A DNA stretch of 63,326 nt from the NCBI RefSeq assembly GCF_000982415.1, contig NZ_LANI01000032.1, positions 1 to 63,326 of the forward strand, read 5' to 3'. Position numbers and translations under genes: made by a program. Positions 50,519 to 58,861 of the stretch are shown in pieces. The first letter of the stretch is position 1. Every line of letters starts with the position of its first letter. This DNA comes from Kiloniella litopenaei (GTDB taxonomy: Bacteria; Pseudomonadota; Alphaproteobacteria; Kiloniellales; Kiloniellaceae). The notes under the pieces were generated by a model, which did no database searches, had not been told where the DNA came from, and was given only the letters and a program-made list of their open reading frames with translations.

Positions 50519-50929
50519 ATGGCTAAAGAGAGTGGCGTTAAGGTCATCTTAAAGGTTGGTGATGGCGCTGACCCAGAAGCATTCAATGACTTGTCTGGTC
50601 AAAAAGACACTCGCATGAGCGGCGCAGCAAATGCGGTTGATGTGTCGGACAAGACGACAGGCGGTTGGGGTTCGACGTTGCCCGGCACCCGGAATATGAC
50701 GGTCACTTCGTCCGGTTTTGCTGTGTGGCCCGACACGAACGGGCTGCAAATCCTTCGCGCTCATTGGGAAGCTGGAACGAATGTGAATTGTGAACTGATT
50801 CTGAATGATTCTGGCAATAAGTACGCTGGCGCGTTCTCAATCACACAGCTTGATATTGGTGGGGCAAATGATGGGGCTACCGAATACAGCGTTACCCTTC
50901 AAAATGCTGGTCAGCCTACTTATTCCTGA
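50519..50929 (+). CDS. major tail tube protein, TP901-1 family
   Basis: A 136-aa tail tube protein: DTRMSGAANAVDVSDKTTGGW and GAFSITQLDIGGANDGATEYSVTLQNAG are typical. ATG preceded by TAAGGA. Confidence 0.88.
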   Translation: MAKESGVKVILKVGDGADPEAFNDLSGQKDTRMSGAANAVDVSDKTTGGWGSTLPGTRNMTVTSSGFAVWPDTNGLQILRAHWEAGTNVNCELILNDSGNKYAGAFSITQLDIGGANDGATEYSVTLQNAGQPTYS

Positions 50930-51291
50930 TGGTAAATAAAATCAGGGGCGAAGTTCCGATAACTTTGGACGGCAATAAGTATAAGCTTGTTCCGTCCTTT
51001 GAGTGCCTTTGTAAGATCGAAGCGGAAACAGGCATGGGTATTGTTGCTCTGGCCCGTAAAGTTTACGCGAGTGACTTCACGTTAACAGAGATTACTTCGA
51101 TCATTACCCATGGGCTTAATGCTGCGGGTGAGCCAGCAACCTTTGGTGCAGTTGGCCCGATGGTTGTGGCTTCTGGGGTTCTCTCTGAGGGTGTTCAAAC
51201 ACCTGTCAGATTGTTCTTTGACTATGCCATTACTGGTGGTCAGGCAAAGAGTGCTGAGGGAAACGCGAAAGCGGCGAAGAGTTCGAAGTAA
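50929..51291 (+). CDS. tail assembly chaperone, GTA/TAC_11 type (short form)
   Basis: A 120-aa protein. EVPITLDGNKYKLVPSFECLCKIEAETGMG, then LTEITSIITHGLNAAG match the TAC_11 family of gene transfer agents. Its last codons include a GGGAAAC slippery site; a -1 shift adds 74 residues (see next entry). Confidence 0.85.
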   Translation: MVNKIRGEVPITLDGNKYKLVPSFECLCKIEAETGMGIVALARKVYASDFTLTEITSIITHGLNAAGEPATFGAVGPMVVASGVLSEGVQTPVRLFFDYAITGGQAKSAEGNAKAAKSSK

Positions 51292-51488
51292 TCCCTTTTC
51301 GTCGCTATCTCGGTATCGCATCAGGGGTGCTTGGTTGGTCCCCTAACGTCTTCTGGAAATCCACACCGCACGAGTTCTTTGCCTCACTCGAGGAAAGGAC
51401 AAAATCCAACTCGCCTGATGACAAGTCGGATAGCGAAGAGGATTTCGCACAGTTCCGTCAAAAACTTGAACGAGCAAACGTGATATGA
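50929..51488 (+). CDS. tail assembly chaperone, -1 frameshift product (long form)
   Basis: The zero frame reads GAG-GGA-AAC; slippage on G-GGA-AAC (51258-51264) to GGG-AAA enters an open -1 frame ending at TGA 51488, total 186 aa. The added part (EVIPFRRYLGIASGVLGWSPNVFWKSTPHEFFASLEE) resembles the separate GTA protein rcc01693 (L-GVLG-SP-xFW-xTPxE pattern). No start codon opens this frame before it. A 7-bp stem (51270-51276/51300-51306) lies 5 bases downstream. TMP ATG overlaps the stop. Confidence 0.75.
51258..51306 (+). promoter_or_regulatory. programmed -1 frameshift signal
   Basis: Slippery heptamer GGGAAAC (51258-51264), 5-base spacer, stem AGCGGCG/CGTCGCT (one G-U pair) with a 23-base loop. 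Lambda uses GGGAAAG at the same kind of gene. Confidence 0.75.
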
Positions 51489-53989
51489 GTGAAATTGAAC
51501 GGCTTATATGGCAGATCGAGGCGAAGACCGAAGGGTTGCGTCGTGAGCTTAAGAGAGCCGAGCAGTCAGGCGAGAAATTCACTCGTAAGATGGACCAGAC
51601 GGTTGCGCGGACGAATAGCCAGTTTGCTGGATTGGGTCGGGTTCTATCTGGTGCCGTTGTTCCTGCGTTGGGTGCTGTTGCAGGGGCCTTATCTGTCCAG
51701 CAAATCTATCGCTATGCGGAAGCCTGGAAGCAGACGGAAAACAGGTTAAAGCTTGTAACAAACGGCACTGCTGAACTGACTGCCACACAAAATAGCTTGT
51801 TTTCTGTAGCTCAGAATACAAGGTCCAGCTTTGAAAGCACTGCGGATCTTTATTCGAGAGTTGCGAGAAGTACGGAAGAATTAAACCTCTCTCAATCCAA
51901 GCTTATTGAGCTAACGACGATTGTTAATCAGGCCAGCCGTATATCTGGCGGTGGTGTTCAGGAAGCTGCGGCGGCTGTCCAGCAGTTCGGGCAAGCTTTG
52001 CAATCTGACAGGCTTCAAGGTGACGAGCTTCGTTCTATTCTGGAAAACGCTCCCCGGTTAGCAAAAGCCCTTGCTGATGGCTTGGGCGTTTCTGTTGGTG
52101 AACTTCGCGCTCTCGGGGCTGAGGGATCATTAACCGCGGACAAGATAGTCAATGCTCTATCTACGCAATCACAGGCACTGCAAGAAGAGTTCGACAAGAT
52201 CGAGAAAACAGGAGCCGAGGCATTAACCCAGCTTGATAATGCCTTCTTGCGTCTGATTTCCACAATGGATAGGGCAACGGGGTTCTCTAAGGGGTTTGCT
52301 AAAGCTGTTAGCGGTTTTTCTGATTTCATTGAAGACGCGGGGCTTGAGGATGCAGAGCAGTCAATTTCGAGCCTTTCGTCTGAAATCGCCGATCTAAAAA
52401 AAGAAATAAGCATCTCGGAAAAGATCAGCTTCTTTGGTGGGGACGTTGAAGAGAAAAGGCGGGAGCTTCAAAAGCTTCAAGATATTGTATCATCACTTCG
52501 GGGTGACCTAAATAAATCACCCTTGCAGATACAACTCGAATTTGATCTTGATAGTTTGCAAAGAAAAGCGGCAGAAGCCAAAATTCGAGCCACGGAAGAG
52601 CTGGAAAAACACAAGAGCAACCTTCTTGATCTAGGGTTTAATGATGTAGACGGCAATGATGCTGTTAACCAAATCAACAAGCAGGTCGTTTCCTTAAATA
52701 AGCAAATTATCGAAACAATCAACAACCTCTCGAAGCTCACGGGCGGGCAGCATCCGGGTGGGGCTGTTGCAATCACTTCTACAGCGACTAAAGAAAAGCC
52801 CCCAACAGAAGAAGAGCTAAAAGAAGCAGAGGCAATCAAGCGCAAAAGAGAGCAGCTGCAATTTCTGCTTGAGCAAGAGCAGCGTAATGAACGCCAGCAG
52901 TTCCTTAATAATCAACTTAATCAGCTAGGTATTGATATTAATCACAAGTCGGCAGGGTCAATTCTTAAGGTCGCTAATGCTCTTTTTGATGTTAGAAAGA
53001 AAAAAGAAGAGTTAGCTAAAGCTGATCAGGACAAAAAAGAAGCTGACGCCGAACTTGAGCAGCAAACTAAAGCCGTAAAAGATGTTGAGCAAGAAATAGC
53101 TAACATCGAGCGCGAAGTTCAGGCGCTTCTCCAAGGCAAAGAAGCTTACGAAGCATACCAACAAGCCCGAGAGATTGAGCAGGGTTCAGAAGCTATCCGT
53201 GAACGCCTTGAGGCATTGGGCCTTGAAGAAGAGCAGATCAATCGTCTGATAGAAGCTTACGAGCGACATTCAGAAGAACTCGACAAAGCAGAAGAGACGT
53301 TCAAAAAACGCGAAGAAGCTGTTGAGCGTCAAAAACAGTCAGAGCAGGAGCTTGCCGATATCCTTGAAAACGGTATCGGGCGTTCATTATCCGCTGCGGC
53401 AGATGGCTGGGACGCATTGGGCAAGGTTGCTCTTGATGTTTTGGGGCAAATTCTAGCTGAAAGCTTGAAGCTTGAAGATGTTTTGTCTAGCTCCGGTGGT
53501 TCTGGTGGCGGTAGCGGTATTTTTGGGGGCCTCTTTAGCAGCCTCACGTCAGGGATCGGCTCTCTATTCAAGTTTGCTGACGGCGGTAAAATCGTTGGTC
53601 CGGGTGGGCCACGATCTGATTCAATCCTCGCGGCGGTCAGTAACGGCGAATACGTTGTGAATGCGGCGGCAACAGCTAAGAATCTGCCTTTGCTTGAGGC
53701 TATTAATTCAGGAAATATCCCAGCTTTTGCAGATGGTGGTTTTGTCGGTGGCTCTGTGCCTCGTGTACCTGATATCTCGAAATCCATGCAGACAATCAAC
53801 AACAGCAACCGCTCAAGCTCTAACAATAGCGTGGTTTATAATATTGATGCCCGAGGTGCGGAGGTTGGAGTAGAACAAAAGATCAAACAGGCACTTGATG
53901 AACGCGAGCCGTTGATTATTGAAGGGGCTGTTCAACAGGTTCAAGAAGAAAGCTACCGAAGTGGCAGCGGCTATCTGGGGGGGTATTAA
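51485..53989 (+). CDS. tape measure protein
   Basis: An 834-aa tail length protein. N-terminal tape-measure domain (LSVQQIYRYAEAWKQTENRLKLVTNGTAELTA, LQGDELRSILENAPRLAKALADGLGVS), long coiled coil (about 440-620, rich in Glu/Gln/Lys), then a Gly/Ser-rich patch and a C-terminal domain. By the usual 0.15 nm per residue, a tail of about 125 nm. Siphovirus morphology. Confidence 0.93.
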   Translation: MSEIERLIWQIEAKTEGLRRELKRAEQSGEKFTRKMDQTVARTNSQFAGLGRVLSGAVVPALGAVAGALSVQQIYRYAEAWKQTENRLKLVTNGTAELTATQNSLFSVAQNTRSSFESTADLYSRVARSTEELNLSQSKLIELTTIVNQASRISGGGVQEAAAAVQQFGQALQSDRLQGDELRSILENAPRLAKALADGLGVSVGELRALGAEGSLTADKIVNALSTQSQALQEEFDKIEKTGAEALTQLDNAFLRLISTMDRATGFSKGFAKAVSGFSDFIEDAGLEDAEQSISSLSSEIADLKKEISISEKISFFGGDVEEKRRELQKLQDIVSSLRGDLNKSPLQIQLEFDLDSLQRKAAEAKIRATEELEKHKSNLLDLGFNDVDGNDAVNQINKQVVSLNKQIIETINNLSKLTGGQHPGGAVAITSTATKEKPPTEEELKEAEAIKRKREQLQFLLEQEQRNERQQFLNNQLNQLGIDINHKSAGSILKVANALFDVRKKKEELAKADQDKKEADAELEQQTKAVKDVEQEIANIEREVQALLQGKEAYEAYQQAREIEQGSEAIRERLEALGLEEEQINRLIEAYERHSEELDKAEETFKKREEAVERQKQSEQELADILENGIGRSLSAAADGWDALGKVALDVLGQILAESLKLEDVLSSSGGSGGGSGIFGGLFSSLTSGIGSLFKFADGGKIVGPGGPRSDSILAAVSNGEYVVNAAATAKNLPLLEAINSGNIPAFADGGFVGGSVPRVPDISKSMQTINNSNRSSSNNSVVYNIDARGAEVGVEQKIKQALDEREPLIIEGAVQQVQEESYRSGSGYLGGY

Positions 53990-55157: not shown

Positions 55158-55570
55158 CGAGATTTGAAGACTGGCCCAACCAGCTAAATCGTTTTGTTGC
55201 GGATTGGCTGGGCAAAAAGCACGTCTGGGGTGCTTCTGATTGCTCGATTATGTGTCTGGATTGGGTCGAGCGGGCCACAGGTCGAAAGGTCGGTGAAGAT
55301 GTAGCGGGTTCTTATGATAGCGCAGCCGGGGCTTTAAATTTTCTTGCAGAAAATAACTATGAAGACCTTGGGGATATGGTCACCGATCGGCTTGGTTCAG
55401 AGCCGATTGACAGAGCCTTTTTACAGCGGGGAGATATTGCGCTTGTCGATTGCCCTAAAGCCCGTGAAGGCATTGGGGTTGTCACTGGCTCTCATATTCT
55501 GATCGTTGATATAAAGCAGGGTGGATCACTGATTCCGCTCTCTCGGGCTATTGCCGGATGGAGGCTGTAA
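55154..55570 (+). CDS. DUF6950 / NlpC-P60-like tail peptidase
   Basis: A 138-aa protein. WGASDCSIMCLDWVERATGRKV has the catalytic-type Cys of NlpC/P60 folds, and RGDIALVDC is the usual next motif; GVVTGSHILIVDI may provide the His. Tail peptidases open the cell wall during DNA entry. Activity not certain. Confidence 0.7.
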   Translation: MTRFEDWPNQLNRFVADWLGKKHVWGASDCSIMCLDWVERATGRKVGEDVAGSYDSAAGALNFLAENNYEDLGDMVTDRLGSEPIDRAFLQRGDIALVDCPKAREGIGVVTGSHILIVDIKQGGSLIPLSRAIAGWRL

Positions 55571-55571
55571 C

Positions 55572-56576
55572 GTGGGTGGAATTGTTGCGGCTGCTGTCGC
55601 TGCTGTTGCCGGGGCATTAGCCAAAGCCAGCATTGGTGCGCTTATAGCCAAGGCTCTGCTTGGCGCTGCTCTTAACTTCGGGCTTTCGGCTGTATCTAAT
55701 GGTCTGTTTGGTAAAAAGGCGTCTGCACCAAAACAAAAGCAGTTTGGCTCGTCAAGAATATTGACATTTCGTGAACCAGTTCAATCGCGAGATGTTGTCT
55801 ATGGTGAGGTTCGCAAAGGCGGTTCGCTTCCTTTTGTCGATACAAGCGGAAGCTACCTCTACATGGTTTTGGCTTTAGCCGGACATGAAGTTGATAGCAT
55901 TAAGGAAGTTTATTTTGCTGAGGAAATCGTTCCTTTGGACGAAAACGGCAATGCTATTGGCAAATACGCCGGATATGTGAAGATTAATAAGCATTTGGGT
56001 GGGCCAAATCAGCAAGCCGATCCTGATCTCGTCGCGGCGTTTCCAGACTGGACTGAGGACCATAAAGGCCAAGGCGTTGCCCACATTGTAGCTCGTCTTA
56101 AATATAATCAGGACAAATTTCCAAACGGAGCACCAACGATTTCAGCCCTTATCAGGGGCCGAAAAGTCCAAGACCCTAGGACGGGTCAAGTTCAGTGGAG
56201 CGACAATGCCCAGCTTTGTATTGCTGACTACCTAAAAGACCCGCTCTACGGGCTTGATATTGATGACTATAACTTACCAGAAGATAGTGTAATAGCTGGG
56301 GCTAACGCCTGTGATGAGACTGTGGCGATTGAAGGGACGAGCCGCGCCGTTGCGTTGCCCGAAGCCAGCTTTTCACTTGAATATGACCTAAGAACGGTTT
56401 GGGAAGATCCACCACCAAGACAACGAGAAGAGGGCGGCTCTGCTTCTGATAACTTTAATGGCGGCGGCGGCTTTAATGAAACTGGCGGTGGCAATTCAGG
56501 TGGTAGCAGTGGCGGGCATCCGGGCGGCGATGGCGGTGGCGGTGGATACGGCGGCGGCGCGGGGGCTTGGACGTAA
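55572..56576 (+). CDS. tip attachment protein, N-terminal half
   Basis: A 334-aa protein. A hydrophobic Ala-rich N-terminus (about 2-45), then RILTFREPVQSRDVVYGEVRKGGSLPFV, YLYMVLALAGHEVDSIKEVYF, and ISALIRGRKVQDPRTGQ...WSDNAQLCIADYLKDPLYGLD are the standard start of lambda J-like tip proteins. It ends in a 45-residue Gly-rich tail (NFNGGGGFNETGGGNSGG...). GTG 55572 start. The rest of J lies in the next gene, joined by TAATG. Confidence 0.8.
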   Translation: MGGIVAAAVAAVAGALAKASIGALIAKALLGAALNFGLSAVSNGLFGKKASAPKQKQFGSSRILTFREPVQSRDVVYGEVRKGGSLPFVDTSGSYLYMVLALAGHEVDSIKEVYFAEEIVPLDENGNAIGKYAGYVKINKHLGGPNQQADPDLVAAFPDWTEDHKGQGVAHIVARLKYNQDKFPNGAPTISALIRGRKVQDPRTGQVQWSDNAQLCIADYLKDPLYGLDIDDYNLPEDSVIAGANACDETVAIEGTSRAVALPEASFSLEYDLRTVWEDPPPRQREEGGSASDNFNGGGGFNETGGGNSGGSSGGHPGGDGGGGGYGGGAGAWT

Positions 56577-58861
56577 TGCCATACGTAACAAAAAACAACG
56601 GCCCCACATCATATGTCAATCTTGGTACAGATCTTGGTTTGGAAACAGGGGACAAGGTTAGGGTTGCCAGCACTGGCGATCTGCCAGACCCGTTATTGGT
56701 TGATACTGACTATTATATTATCCGCTCGTCAGGCACTAAGATAGCCTTTGCTGCAAGCGAAGCTGATGCGCTCAATGGCGCTAAGATTGAAATCTCTGGC
56801 GGCTCAGGGGCGATGACCGTGATGCCGAGAGAAGTTTTGCTCGTAACTGACAAACACGCCTTGCGTGATGGTGATGTGGTCAAAGTGTCCAGTACTGGTG
56901 ATCTGCCAGACCCGCTTGACGCGGTGACGGATTATTATTGTTCCGTTCTCTCAAACAAAAGAATTAAGCTTTCTGCAACGGCGAATGGTTCTGCTATTCA
57001 GTTAACAAGCCCTGGTACTGGCAGTTTGTCGATTAAGCGGTCTGGAACGCGACGTTATCGGCTTAATGGTGACTTTGAGAGCAATTTAAAGCCACGCGAA
57101 ATAATACAAAACATGCTTACTTGCTGCGCGGGCGACCTAATTCCGTCGGGCGGGTCATGGTATATCCAGCCCGGTGTGTGGGAGCCGCCGACCATAGAGC
57201 TAACAGCAGATGATTTTCGAGGACCGATCAAAGTAAGCCCGAGGACAACAAGGCGTGATCTATTTAATGCCGTTAAGGGTAAATATATCAGCCCTGACAA
57301 TGACCATCAGCCCGCTGATTATCCTGTTGTCCGAAACGCCACTTATGAGGCGAGAGATAACGGAAAAGTTATCTATAAGGACTTTGATCAGAACTTTACA
57401 GATTGCCCGTGTCAGGGGCAGCGGGTCGCAAAGATAGTTCTTGAAAAGGGCGCTCAACAAATAACGGTTAATTTGCCTTGCAAGTTACGGGCAATGAAAG
57501 TAACGCCGGGCAAAAATGTGATGCTTACCCTGCCTCGTTTCGGGTGGGACAAAAAGTATTTCTTTGTAGAAAAAAGAACTCTGGTAACTGAAAAGGGGGC
57601 CAACGGCGTCCCTGTTTTGGGTATCGATTTGGTTCTTCGTGAAACTGCGCCAGAAATTTACGACTGGAACTCAGGTGAGGAAACAATTGTCGATCCCGCG
57701 CCAGACAGTAATTTACCTTCGCCGTTTGATGTTCCGCAACCGGGCATTCCGTCAGTCACTGAGGAATTATATAGGTCGCCCGGGGGTGGTCTAAAAACAA
57801 GAATTACCTTTGAAACAGCGGTCACGGAATGGCCGTATCCCCTAGAATACGAATACGCTTTCTCAATCAACGGGTCGTCTCTAAAAATTATCCCGAAAAA
57901 TAAAAACCCGAAGGTGACAGTTCAGGATGTTGATAGTGGTGATATTTATGTAAGCGTTATAGCTTATAACGCTCTCGGGGTGTCTTCTTCGAACGCCGAG
58001 TTTATAGGCAAAATATATGGCCTGACCGCACCACCACAGCCTTTAAGTGAGGTTAATCTGCAAAAGATCGGCGGGCTGGCTTACATCACATGGAAAGCAC
58101 TAAGCGAGCTTGATGTGGTGTTTGGCGGGCGCGTCTTAATCCGTCATTCACCCAAGCCGTTAAGTGAAGCTCTTTGGGAAAATTCGGTTTCTATCGGTGA
58201 GCCTGTTGCTGGAACCGCTGGTTCTGTTGCTTTGCCATTGCGGGCGGGTACATACCTTCTAAAAACAGAAGATAGCGGCGGCAGAAGAAGCACTGAGACA
58301 GCCAAGGTCGAGACCGATGGGGCGGGGTTGGTTGCATATAGCCCGCTTACATATGTCCAAGCTCATCCCGCTTGGTCTGGCGAAAAAGATGGCACTGTGC
58401 TGCGGAATGGCTCTCTGAGGCTGTCATCGCAACAGCTTATTTCGGAAGTCGATCTAATTTCGGAGATTGAGTCCTTTAATACGCTCGGCGGTATCAGAGA
58501 AACGGGAAAATATCGCTTTGCGTCTGGGATTGATCTGGGATCAGTAAAGCCTGTGAGGCTTCGCGTTGAGGTCGATGTAACGGGATACGACGAGAGCAAT
58601 AAAATATCCAAGCGCGGATTGATATCAACGTGGCCCTCAATCCTTGGCGACATGACGGGCGACGTTGAATGTGACCTGTGGATCACGACGACAAACGATG
58701 ACCCGAACGGCGGTTCTCCTGTGTGGTCGGACTGGAAAAAAGAAGTCGGCTCAGAACATAACGTGAGGGCTTTTGATTTTGAATTGCGACTCAGATCTGG
58801 CGACGAAAACACCAACATAGCAATAAACGAATGCACCATTTACGCTGACGAGGTTTCCTGA
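56576..58861 (+). CDS. tip attachment protein, C-terminal half with duplicated insert
   Basis: A 761-aa protein. Residues about 1-145 hold two copies of a domain of about 70 aa (TGDLPDPLLVDTDYYIIRSSGTKIAFA; TGDLPDPLDAVTDYYCSVLSNKRIKLS). Then RRYRLNGDFESNLKPREIIQNMLTCCAG, PIKVSPRTTRRDLFNAVKGKYISP continues the J fold, with Fn3-like repeats behind. ATG shares a base with the previous stop. Host-range determinant. Confidence 0.85.
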   Translation: MPYVTKNNGPTSYVNLGTDLGLETGDKVRVASTGDLPDPLLVDTDYYIIRSSGTKIAFAASEADALNGAKIEISGGSGAMTVMPREVLLVTDKHALRDGDVVKVSSTGDLPDPLDAVTDYYCSVLSNKRIKLSATANGSAIQLTSPGTGSLSIKRSGTRRYRLNGDFESNLKPREIIQNMLTCCAGDLIPSGGSWYIQPGVWEPPTIELTADDFRGPIKVSPRTTRRDLFNAVKGKYISPDNDHQPADYPVVRNATYEARDNGKVIYKDFDQNFTDCPCQGQRVAKIVLEKGAQQITVNLPCKLRAMKVTPGKNVMLTLPRFGWDKKYFFVEKRTLVTEKGANGVPVLGIDLVLRETAPEIYDWNSGEETIVDPAPDSNLPSPFDVPQPGIPSVTEELYRSPGGGLKTRITFETAVTEWPYPLEYEYAFSINGSSLKIIPKNKNPKVTVQDVDSGDIYVSVIAYNALGVSSSNAEFIGKIYGLTAPPQPLSEVNLQKIGGLAYITWKALSELDVVFGGRVLIRHSPKPLSEALWENSVSIGEPVAGTAGSVALPLRAGTYLLKTEDSGGRRSTETAKVETDGAGLVAYSPLTYVQAHPAWSGEKDGTVLRNGSLRLSSQQLISEVDLISEIESFNTLGGIRETGKYRFASGIDLGSVKPVRLRVEVDVTGYDESNKISKRGLISTWPSILGDMTGDVECDLWITTTNDDPNGGSPVWSDWKKEVGSEHNVRAFDFELRLRSGDENTNIAINECTIYADEVS

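Follow-up and report, generated by a model that had tools for sequence, protein, structure and literature searches.

Between the tail tube and tape measure genes of the window (the whole stretch of 63,326 nucleotides from Kiloniella litopenaei analysed here) lie two overlapping reading frames that, with a probability we put at about 94%, form a -1 frameshift locus of the lambda G/GT type, in which a first tail assembly chaperone (Pfam family Phage_TAC_11) would be fused to a second one (Phage_TAC_6). A sequence-only reading of the window had already proposed that a -1 frameshift fuses two tail chaperones of the gene transfer agent (GTA) type, and the frames, the domains, the conservation among relatives and a survey of the family all speak for it. 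The features concerned are the following:

50519..50929, + strand: major tail tube protein, 136 aa (PF06199, E 1.1e-23)
50929..51291, + strand: zero-frame gene for the short, gpG-like tail assembly chaperone, 120 aa (PF11836, Phage_TAC_11)
51255..51257, + strand: TGA in the -1 frame directly 5' of the heptamer, barring entry into that frame further upstream
51258..51264, + strand: candidate slippery heptamer G_GGA_AAC, in the zero frame over GAG GGA AAC
51258..51488, + strand: -1 frame extension (T-like domain; PF09550, Phage_TAC_6)
51265..51269, + strand: spacer of 5 nt between heptamer and stem
51270..51281, + strand: 5' arm of a 12-bp stem; invariant among three sequences except at 1 of 12 positions (A replaced by G, the pair kept as G-U)
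51282..51294, + strand: loop of 13 nt containing the zero-frame stop TAA (51289-51291); variable at 5 of 13 positions among three sequences
51295..51306, + strand: 3' arm of the stem, covering the PFRR codons of the second domain; invariant at all 12 positions among three sequences
51485..53989, + strand: tape measure protein, 834 aa (PF20155, E 9.6e-58)

The two frames thus sit where the lambda G and T frames sit, in the order tube, TAC_11, TAC_6, tape measure. The tail tube protein matches the RcGTA tail tube Rcc01691 (phmmer, E 4.6e-9), and the zero-frame product matches PF11836 with 54.2 bits (E 1.6e-14), above the Pfam cut-off of 27.8. Pfam names this family Phage_TAC_11 yet describes it as a tail tube protein (GTA-gp10); we favour the chaperone over the tube because of the gene order and the frameshift arrangement. 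When the PDB was searched with a profile of five rows for the first chaperone, nothing matched. The -1 frame product matches PF09550 with 29.1 bits (E 1.4e-6; cut-off 23.4), so that its claimed resemblance to rcc01693 holds for this Pfam family but not for the rcc01693 family itself (TIGR02216), against which it scored 20.9 bits, under the NCBIfam cut-off of 56.1.

The zero frame ends in GCT GAG GGA AAC GCG AAA GCG GCG AAG AGT TCG AAG TAA, the TAA being 51289-51291. Since TGA occupies 51255-51257, the stop-to-stop -1 frame starts exactly at 51258; it runs to the TGA at 51486-51488, which overlaps the tape measure ATG at 51485 (ATGA), and has 76 codons including GGG AAA, or the 74 codons after the slip that the sequence-only reading had counted. 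The predicted long form has 112 + 74 = 186 aa. As that reading had also stated, the second part has no start of its own in front: the first ATG, GTG or TTG in the window's -1 frame is GTG 51327, already within the conserved domain, and in this the second part is like the T part of lambda.

The canonical heptamer is read directly at 51258-51264, in frame as proposed and near the end of the first gene, with the second frame at -1, as expected of a X_XXY_YYZ slip site. We rejected rarity alone as evidence, GGGAAAC occurring 9 times in the window against 8.3 expected; what is unusual about this copy is its phase and place. Upstream of the overlap, in the body of the surveyed loci whose second part lacks a nearby start, in-frame X_XXY_YYZ occurs at about 0.2% per codon (9 in 4433 codons), hence a chance expectation of about 2% for the 11-codon overlap. 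In PMC5009743, G_GGA_AAC ranks among the best sites for mammalian ribosomes and G_GGA_AAG is highly shift-prone in E. coli, so the slippage rate in the window may be low.

The hairpin proposed downstream, a 7-bp stem (51270-51276/51300-51306) after 5 bases, is real and has the 5-nt spacer, but it is only part of a 12-bp stem (51270-51281/51295-51306) that includes two G-U pairs. The fold of 51258-51345 has a z of -2.48, with 3 of 200 shuffles folding equally well. Relatives of the locus were found in IMG/VR: L003/L051 (92% identical to the window in the first part, 79% in the second), L004 (79% and 87%) and L052 (59% in the second part). Aligning relatives had been suggested as a check, and GGGAAAC proved unchanged in L004 and L003/L051. 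In a close comparison of three sequences (window, L004 and L051), variation affected 14 of 33 positions upstream of the heptamer block (51213-51245), none of 20 in the block that holds the heptamer (51246-51265), 1 of 24 in the stem (A-U to G-U) and 8 of 23 after it (51307-51329). The slower change of the 5' arm could have a second cause because both frames code there, from which the 3' arm is exempt. Neither L004 nor L003/L051 has an ATG, GTG or TTG ahead of the second domain. The more distant L052 lacks a canonical heptamer and has G_GGG_GAA with an 8-bp stem instead, while L062, 35% identical to the window in both parts, again has GGGAAAC in frame over E-G-N codons. The same heptamer lies near the corresponding place in L062, L063, L181, L189, L191, L193, L194, L199, L201 and L225, and in some relatives the second part has its own start (L013 of the window's order; L202 and L207 among viral contigs).

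For the wider survey, loci of PF09550/PF11836 were taken from the order to which the window belongs (12 of 61 genomes), a sample of the class (44 of 385 genomes, or 47 of the 385 when profile A3 was used; L001 in this set is the locus of the window itself), another order of the class with one genome per species (PF09550 in 31 of 40), named genomes (the best 80 of 563), viral contigs together with two phage records, and the RcGTA-like family (matches in 111 of 149 genomes, of which 71 had their loci examined). Two locally built profile HMMs positioned both domains in each locus. A locus was scored as having no start when the second frame held no ATG, GTG or TTG in the stretch that opens 60 nt ahead of the first gene's end and closes where the second domain starts; under this definition a start can still lie farther upstream, as it does in some of these loci (e.g., L009, L012, L014, L018). 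The first round gave 186 distinct loci, from which 9 in the +1 frame, 2 in the same frame, 5 without a second domain and 2 with a far stop were excluded. Among the 168 kept, all with the second part at -1, an in-frame canonical heptamer was present in 77 of 93 loci with no start, 11 of 17 with TTG only and 8 of 58 with ATG or GTG (77/93 vs. 8/58, Fisher p 1.4e-17, a value that overstates independence because the loci are related). Canonical heptamers in the 93 no-start loci fell 101/15/17 into phases 0/1/2, against 9/12/7 in the 4433 codons of their upstream bodies. Eight of the 16 no-start loci without a heptamer have NNG_GGG_GAA (G_GGG_GAA) in common.

Over all sets there were 307 loci, 2 without a first-domain match (L047, L069); after removal of 50 duplicates, 255 distinct loci remained. 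The second part has its own start (-1 frame, ATG/GTG near the stop) in 102, 10 of these with an in-frame heptamer; the others comprise 77 with a heptamer and no start, 18 with TTG, 8 with GGGGGAA, 28 in the +1 frame, 7 in the same frame, 5 without a second domain and 2 far, and 8 no-start loci with neither a canonical heptamer nor GGGGGAA. By set, the distribution was as follows:

Viral, 28 loci: 16 heptamer, 8 GGGGGAA, 2 start, 1 +1, 1 without second domain
Window's order, 11 other loci: 10 heptamer without nearby start (mostly A_AAA_AAA), 1 start
Other order, 29 loci: 20 start, 8 heptamer, 1 +1
Named genomes, 76 loci (from the best 80 of 563): 27 heptamer, 22 start, 15 TTG, 5 none, 4 +1, 2 far, 1 without second domain
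Class sample, 40 loci: 16 heptamer, 11 start, 3 none, 3 +1, 2 TTG, 2 same frame, 3 without second domain
RcGTA-like family, 71 loci: 46 start (-1 with ATG/GTG), 19 +1, 5 same frame, 1 TTG

Where the second part lies in the +1 frame or in that of the first, an ATG or GTG is nearby in 33 of 35 loci (exceptions L044, L286), so that of the 95 loci lacking a nearby start 93 have the -1 frame. In one of these exceptions, L286 (genome G527, RcGTA-like family), both chaperone domains lie in one open frame, which may be an in-frame fusion or a frame-damaged copy. The in-frame NNG_GGG_GAA was seen in eight viral contigs (L052, L177, L178, L179, L182, L183, L184, L203), with a stem of at least 8 bp right after the site in seven and of 7 bp in L182; it is possibly a non-canonical slip site.

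Hairpins were searched at GGGAAAN and GGGGGAA sites in 28 loci of the viral-contig and class-sample sets (non-phage ones included, e.g., L031 in a GTA-like cluster), with the helix starting 3-8 nt downstream. Because the helix is picked as the best per sequence, the actual test is the comparison with 140 control segments from the same loci under the same helix search: helices of at least 8 bp were found in 22 of the 28 loci (at least 6 bp in 26) and in 7 of the 140 controls. The spacer measures 5-7 nt in 24 of the 26 loci having a helix, and the pair types differ between loci (helix column 9: GC 17, CG 7, GT 1, AT 1). A stem of at least 8 bp was absent in six of the 28 (none in L008 and L225, 6 bp in L057 and L201, 7 bp in L182 and L199). 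When those of the order and named sets were added (37 loci), the mean fold z was -1.72, against -0.14 in the 102 own-start loci (p 1.8e-7, which likewise overstates independence). At the other sites, over all sets, it was -0.94 for TTTCCC (17 loci), -0.26 for CCCTTT (10), 0.03 for AAACCC (12) and -0.23 for AAAAAA (9), and the six GGGAAAG loci of the named genomes (from the best 80 of 563) had z values of -1.7, -1.4, -0.6, -0.2, -0.1 and 0.3.

The most serious competitor, to which we nevertheless give only a few chances in a hundred, is that the second domain is made as a separate protein by termination-reinitiation, either from a non-standard start (e.g., ATC 51291-51293 beside the TAA) or from the internal GTG 51327. 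Stop-overlapping starts are indeed used in many homologues (the 102 own-start loci among the 255), the depositor of Sinorhizobium phage phi2LM21 assigned a CTG start to a homologue, and the ATC in the window opens the conserved IPFRRY motif; a start at GTG 51327, however, would remove that motif, and there is no ATG, GTG or TTG before the domain in the window, L004 or L003/L051. Reinitiation also leaves unexplained why heptamers are phase-specific, why a hairpin follows at a near-fixed distance and why the frame is exactly -1 in 93 of the 95 loci lacking a nearby start.

A sequencing error or a decayed gene, i.e., one former gene in which a base was lost or gained, would likewise leave two domains in different frames, but the same arrangement recurs in independent contigs (L004, L003/L051, L052 and others) and both parts are conserved as proteins in L003/L051 and L004; we take this explanation as refuted by the relatives and give it next to no weight. 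Hardly any more credible is slippage of RNA polymerase, or another recoding route, in place of tandem tRNA slippage on the ribosome. Nine no-start loci carry A_AAA_AAA, where transcriptional slippage is possible, but the window has GGGAAAC, a poor site for polymerase slippage, followed by a hairpin at a spacing typical of ribosomal frameshift sites. Ribosomal -1 frameshifting hence stays the preferred reading of the window.

In lambda, according to PMC5009743, the G and T genes precede the tape measure gene and yield, besides a short protein, a smaller amount of one that is extended at its C-terminus through -1 slippage close to the 3' end. The window shares the gene place and the scheme of short and extended forms; it is unlike lambda in its GTA-type families (PF11836/PF09550), and the likeness drawn here is one of arrangement. 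The lambda heptamer is G_GGA_AAG, whereas that of the window ends in C and is followed by a long hairpin. GGGAAAC itself has been proposed as a tail chaperone frameshift site in Caulobacter phage Colossus, Burkholderia phage KL1 and the haloarchaeal virus HCTV-1 (PMC3556154, PMC3483164 and PMC5009743), which belong to other virus lineages and are compared with the window here by heptamer and purpose. These papers thus document the lambda mechanism and name both G_GGA_AAC and G_GGA_AAG as sites of tail chaperone frameshifting. Two further papers call frameshifting usual in these genes of Rhodobacter capsulatus phages (PMC8601537) and, in a survey of disrupted genes, give measured values of 6% and 7% for two HK97-like chaperone genes (PMC3711429). 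Closer to the window by family, Rhizobium phage RHph_Y3_1 has an in-frame GAG_GGA_AAC close to where its first chaperone gene ends, as in the window, but was deposited with separate genes and possesses an ATG at the second domain as well, so the locus (L308 1440-1503) could use the frameshift, its own ATG, or both. In phi2LM21, also deposited as separate genes, the second with its CTG start, CTG_GGA_AAG lies in frame shortly before the first chaperone gene stops; in its locus (L008 2900-3060) the CTG stands beside the previous stop and the in-frame GGGAAAG (2947-2953) ends 15 nt before that stop. Judged from these letters, the separate chaperone gene of phi2LM21 is likely an overlooked frameshift.

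RcGTA has the same two domain families in the same order as the window (g10, Rcc01692; g10.1/g10.5, Rcc01693), and in PMC11409702 and PMC9765227 the second GTA chaperone is treated as a separate gene; no reported frameshift for the GTA pair was found in the passages of the literature that were consulted. The sequence-only reading had accordingly held that the two are separate genes in GTAs and that lambda-style control sets this phage apart from them. The first statement is borne out in the RcGTA-like family, where 0 of 71 loci are frameshift-like and 24 are in a frame other than -1 (R. capsulatus itself is not among the 71 loci, and the family label rests on the tube protein of L022, which matches Rcc01691 with E 9.3e-73), but many other alphaproteobacterial GTA-like clusters carry in-frame heptamers and no nearby start for the second part. 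The contrast between phage and GTAs is therefore not a general one. Like the window, 27 of the 76 named-genome loci (from the best 80 of 563), in Hyphomicrobium, Methylocystis, Rhizobiaceae and allies, have an in-frame heptamer and no nearby ATG, GTG or TTG, although their heptamers (TTTCCC/CCCTTT, AAACCC or GGGAAA) are mostly unlike that of the window and their downstream folding is weaker.

The window element itself appears, on sequence criteria, to be a siphophage-like prophage carrying a GTA-type tube and chaperone segment, rather than an RcGTA-type GTA: no match to TIGR02217 or TIGR02218, the RcGTA-type tail-tip families, was found in its genome, these being matched in 12 of 15 genomes searched, and the PHROGs matched by its tail tip are J-like. 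This tail tip protein is distributed over two ORFs (window 55551-58861), the first (55551-56576) matching positions 6-295 and the second (56567-58861) positions 297-527 of PHROG 5616, and the two overlap as TAATG at 56574-56578, after a glycine-rich stretch. Both TIGR families adjoin the chaperones in 10 of the 11 frameshift-like GTA-type genomes searched (G443 is without them), as they do in two genomes of the window's order, G028 and G040, and the tube protein of L095, a CCCTTTCCCT locus, matches Rcc01691 with E 8.4e-48.

On balance we lean towards the view that -1 frameshifting is common for this pair in GTA-like clusters, with the RcGTA-like lineage and several others having a separate, stop-overlapping gene and with repeated switching between the two. 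The sites would be CCCTTTCCCT in Hyphomicrobium and relatives and GGGAAAG in others. Both arrangements occur within the order sampled by one genome per species and, in one case, within a single taxonomic family. The tree of the first chaperone (100 columns kept, 86 of 177 inner branches open, six loci dropped for want of a start motif) gives 20 changes of arrangement against a shuffled mean of 59, usable as an order of magnitude only, and 13 changes within the GTA sets, on the same weak tree. The CCCTTTCCCT signal is partly codon preference, because own-start loci also write the FPW codons as TTTCCC (20 of 35, against 18 of 19 where the slip site lies at the domain start), and the case for frameshifting in GTA-like loci is weakened by the less clear folding at their sites. 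An A_AAC_CCY right before TGA was seen in GTA-like Hyphomicrobiales loci (L126, L139, L142, L145-L147, L150, L172 and others) and may be a slip site, a TTG start or another coupling; these loci were kept apart because CCT-TGA itself creates TTG and the folding is not unusual (z 0.03).

For the window we infer that slippage occurs and that two tail assembly chaperones would be made from one start codon. Most ribosomes would read 50929-51291 into the 120-aa TAC_11 protein (gpG role), and a minority, held up by the 12-bp hairpin that begins 5 nt after the heptamer, would slip back one base on G_GGA_AAC, the tRNAs on GGA and AAC re-pairing with GGG and AAA, and read 74 more codons into the 186-aa TAC_11-TAC_6 fusion (gpGT role). 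If the two products behave as in lambda, the tape measure protein would be coated with many copies of the short form and few of the long one, and the TAC_6 part would bring in the tail tube protein, whose gene lies just upstream. Both products, binding tape measure and tube, would be absent from virions.

The window thus holds a well-supported, very probable further frameshift locus within the GTA-type chaperone family, and the split of the same pair into frameshift-like and two-gene arrangements across phages and GTA-like clusters is the more interesting result. Two arrangements of one protein pair offer a natural comparison for why a fixed ratio of two chaperones is kept in tailed particles. 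The result bears on how the pair is annotated in phages and probably also in GTAs; if frameshifting is used there, part of the short separate second chaperones annotated in GTA-like clusters would be mis-annotated. If this holds in real GTAs, domesticated particles would have kept, and in some lineages lost, the recoding signal.
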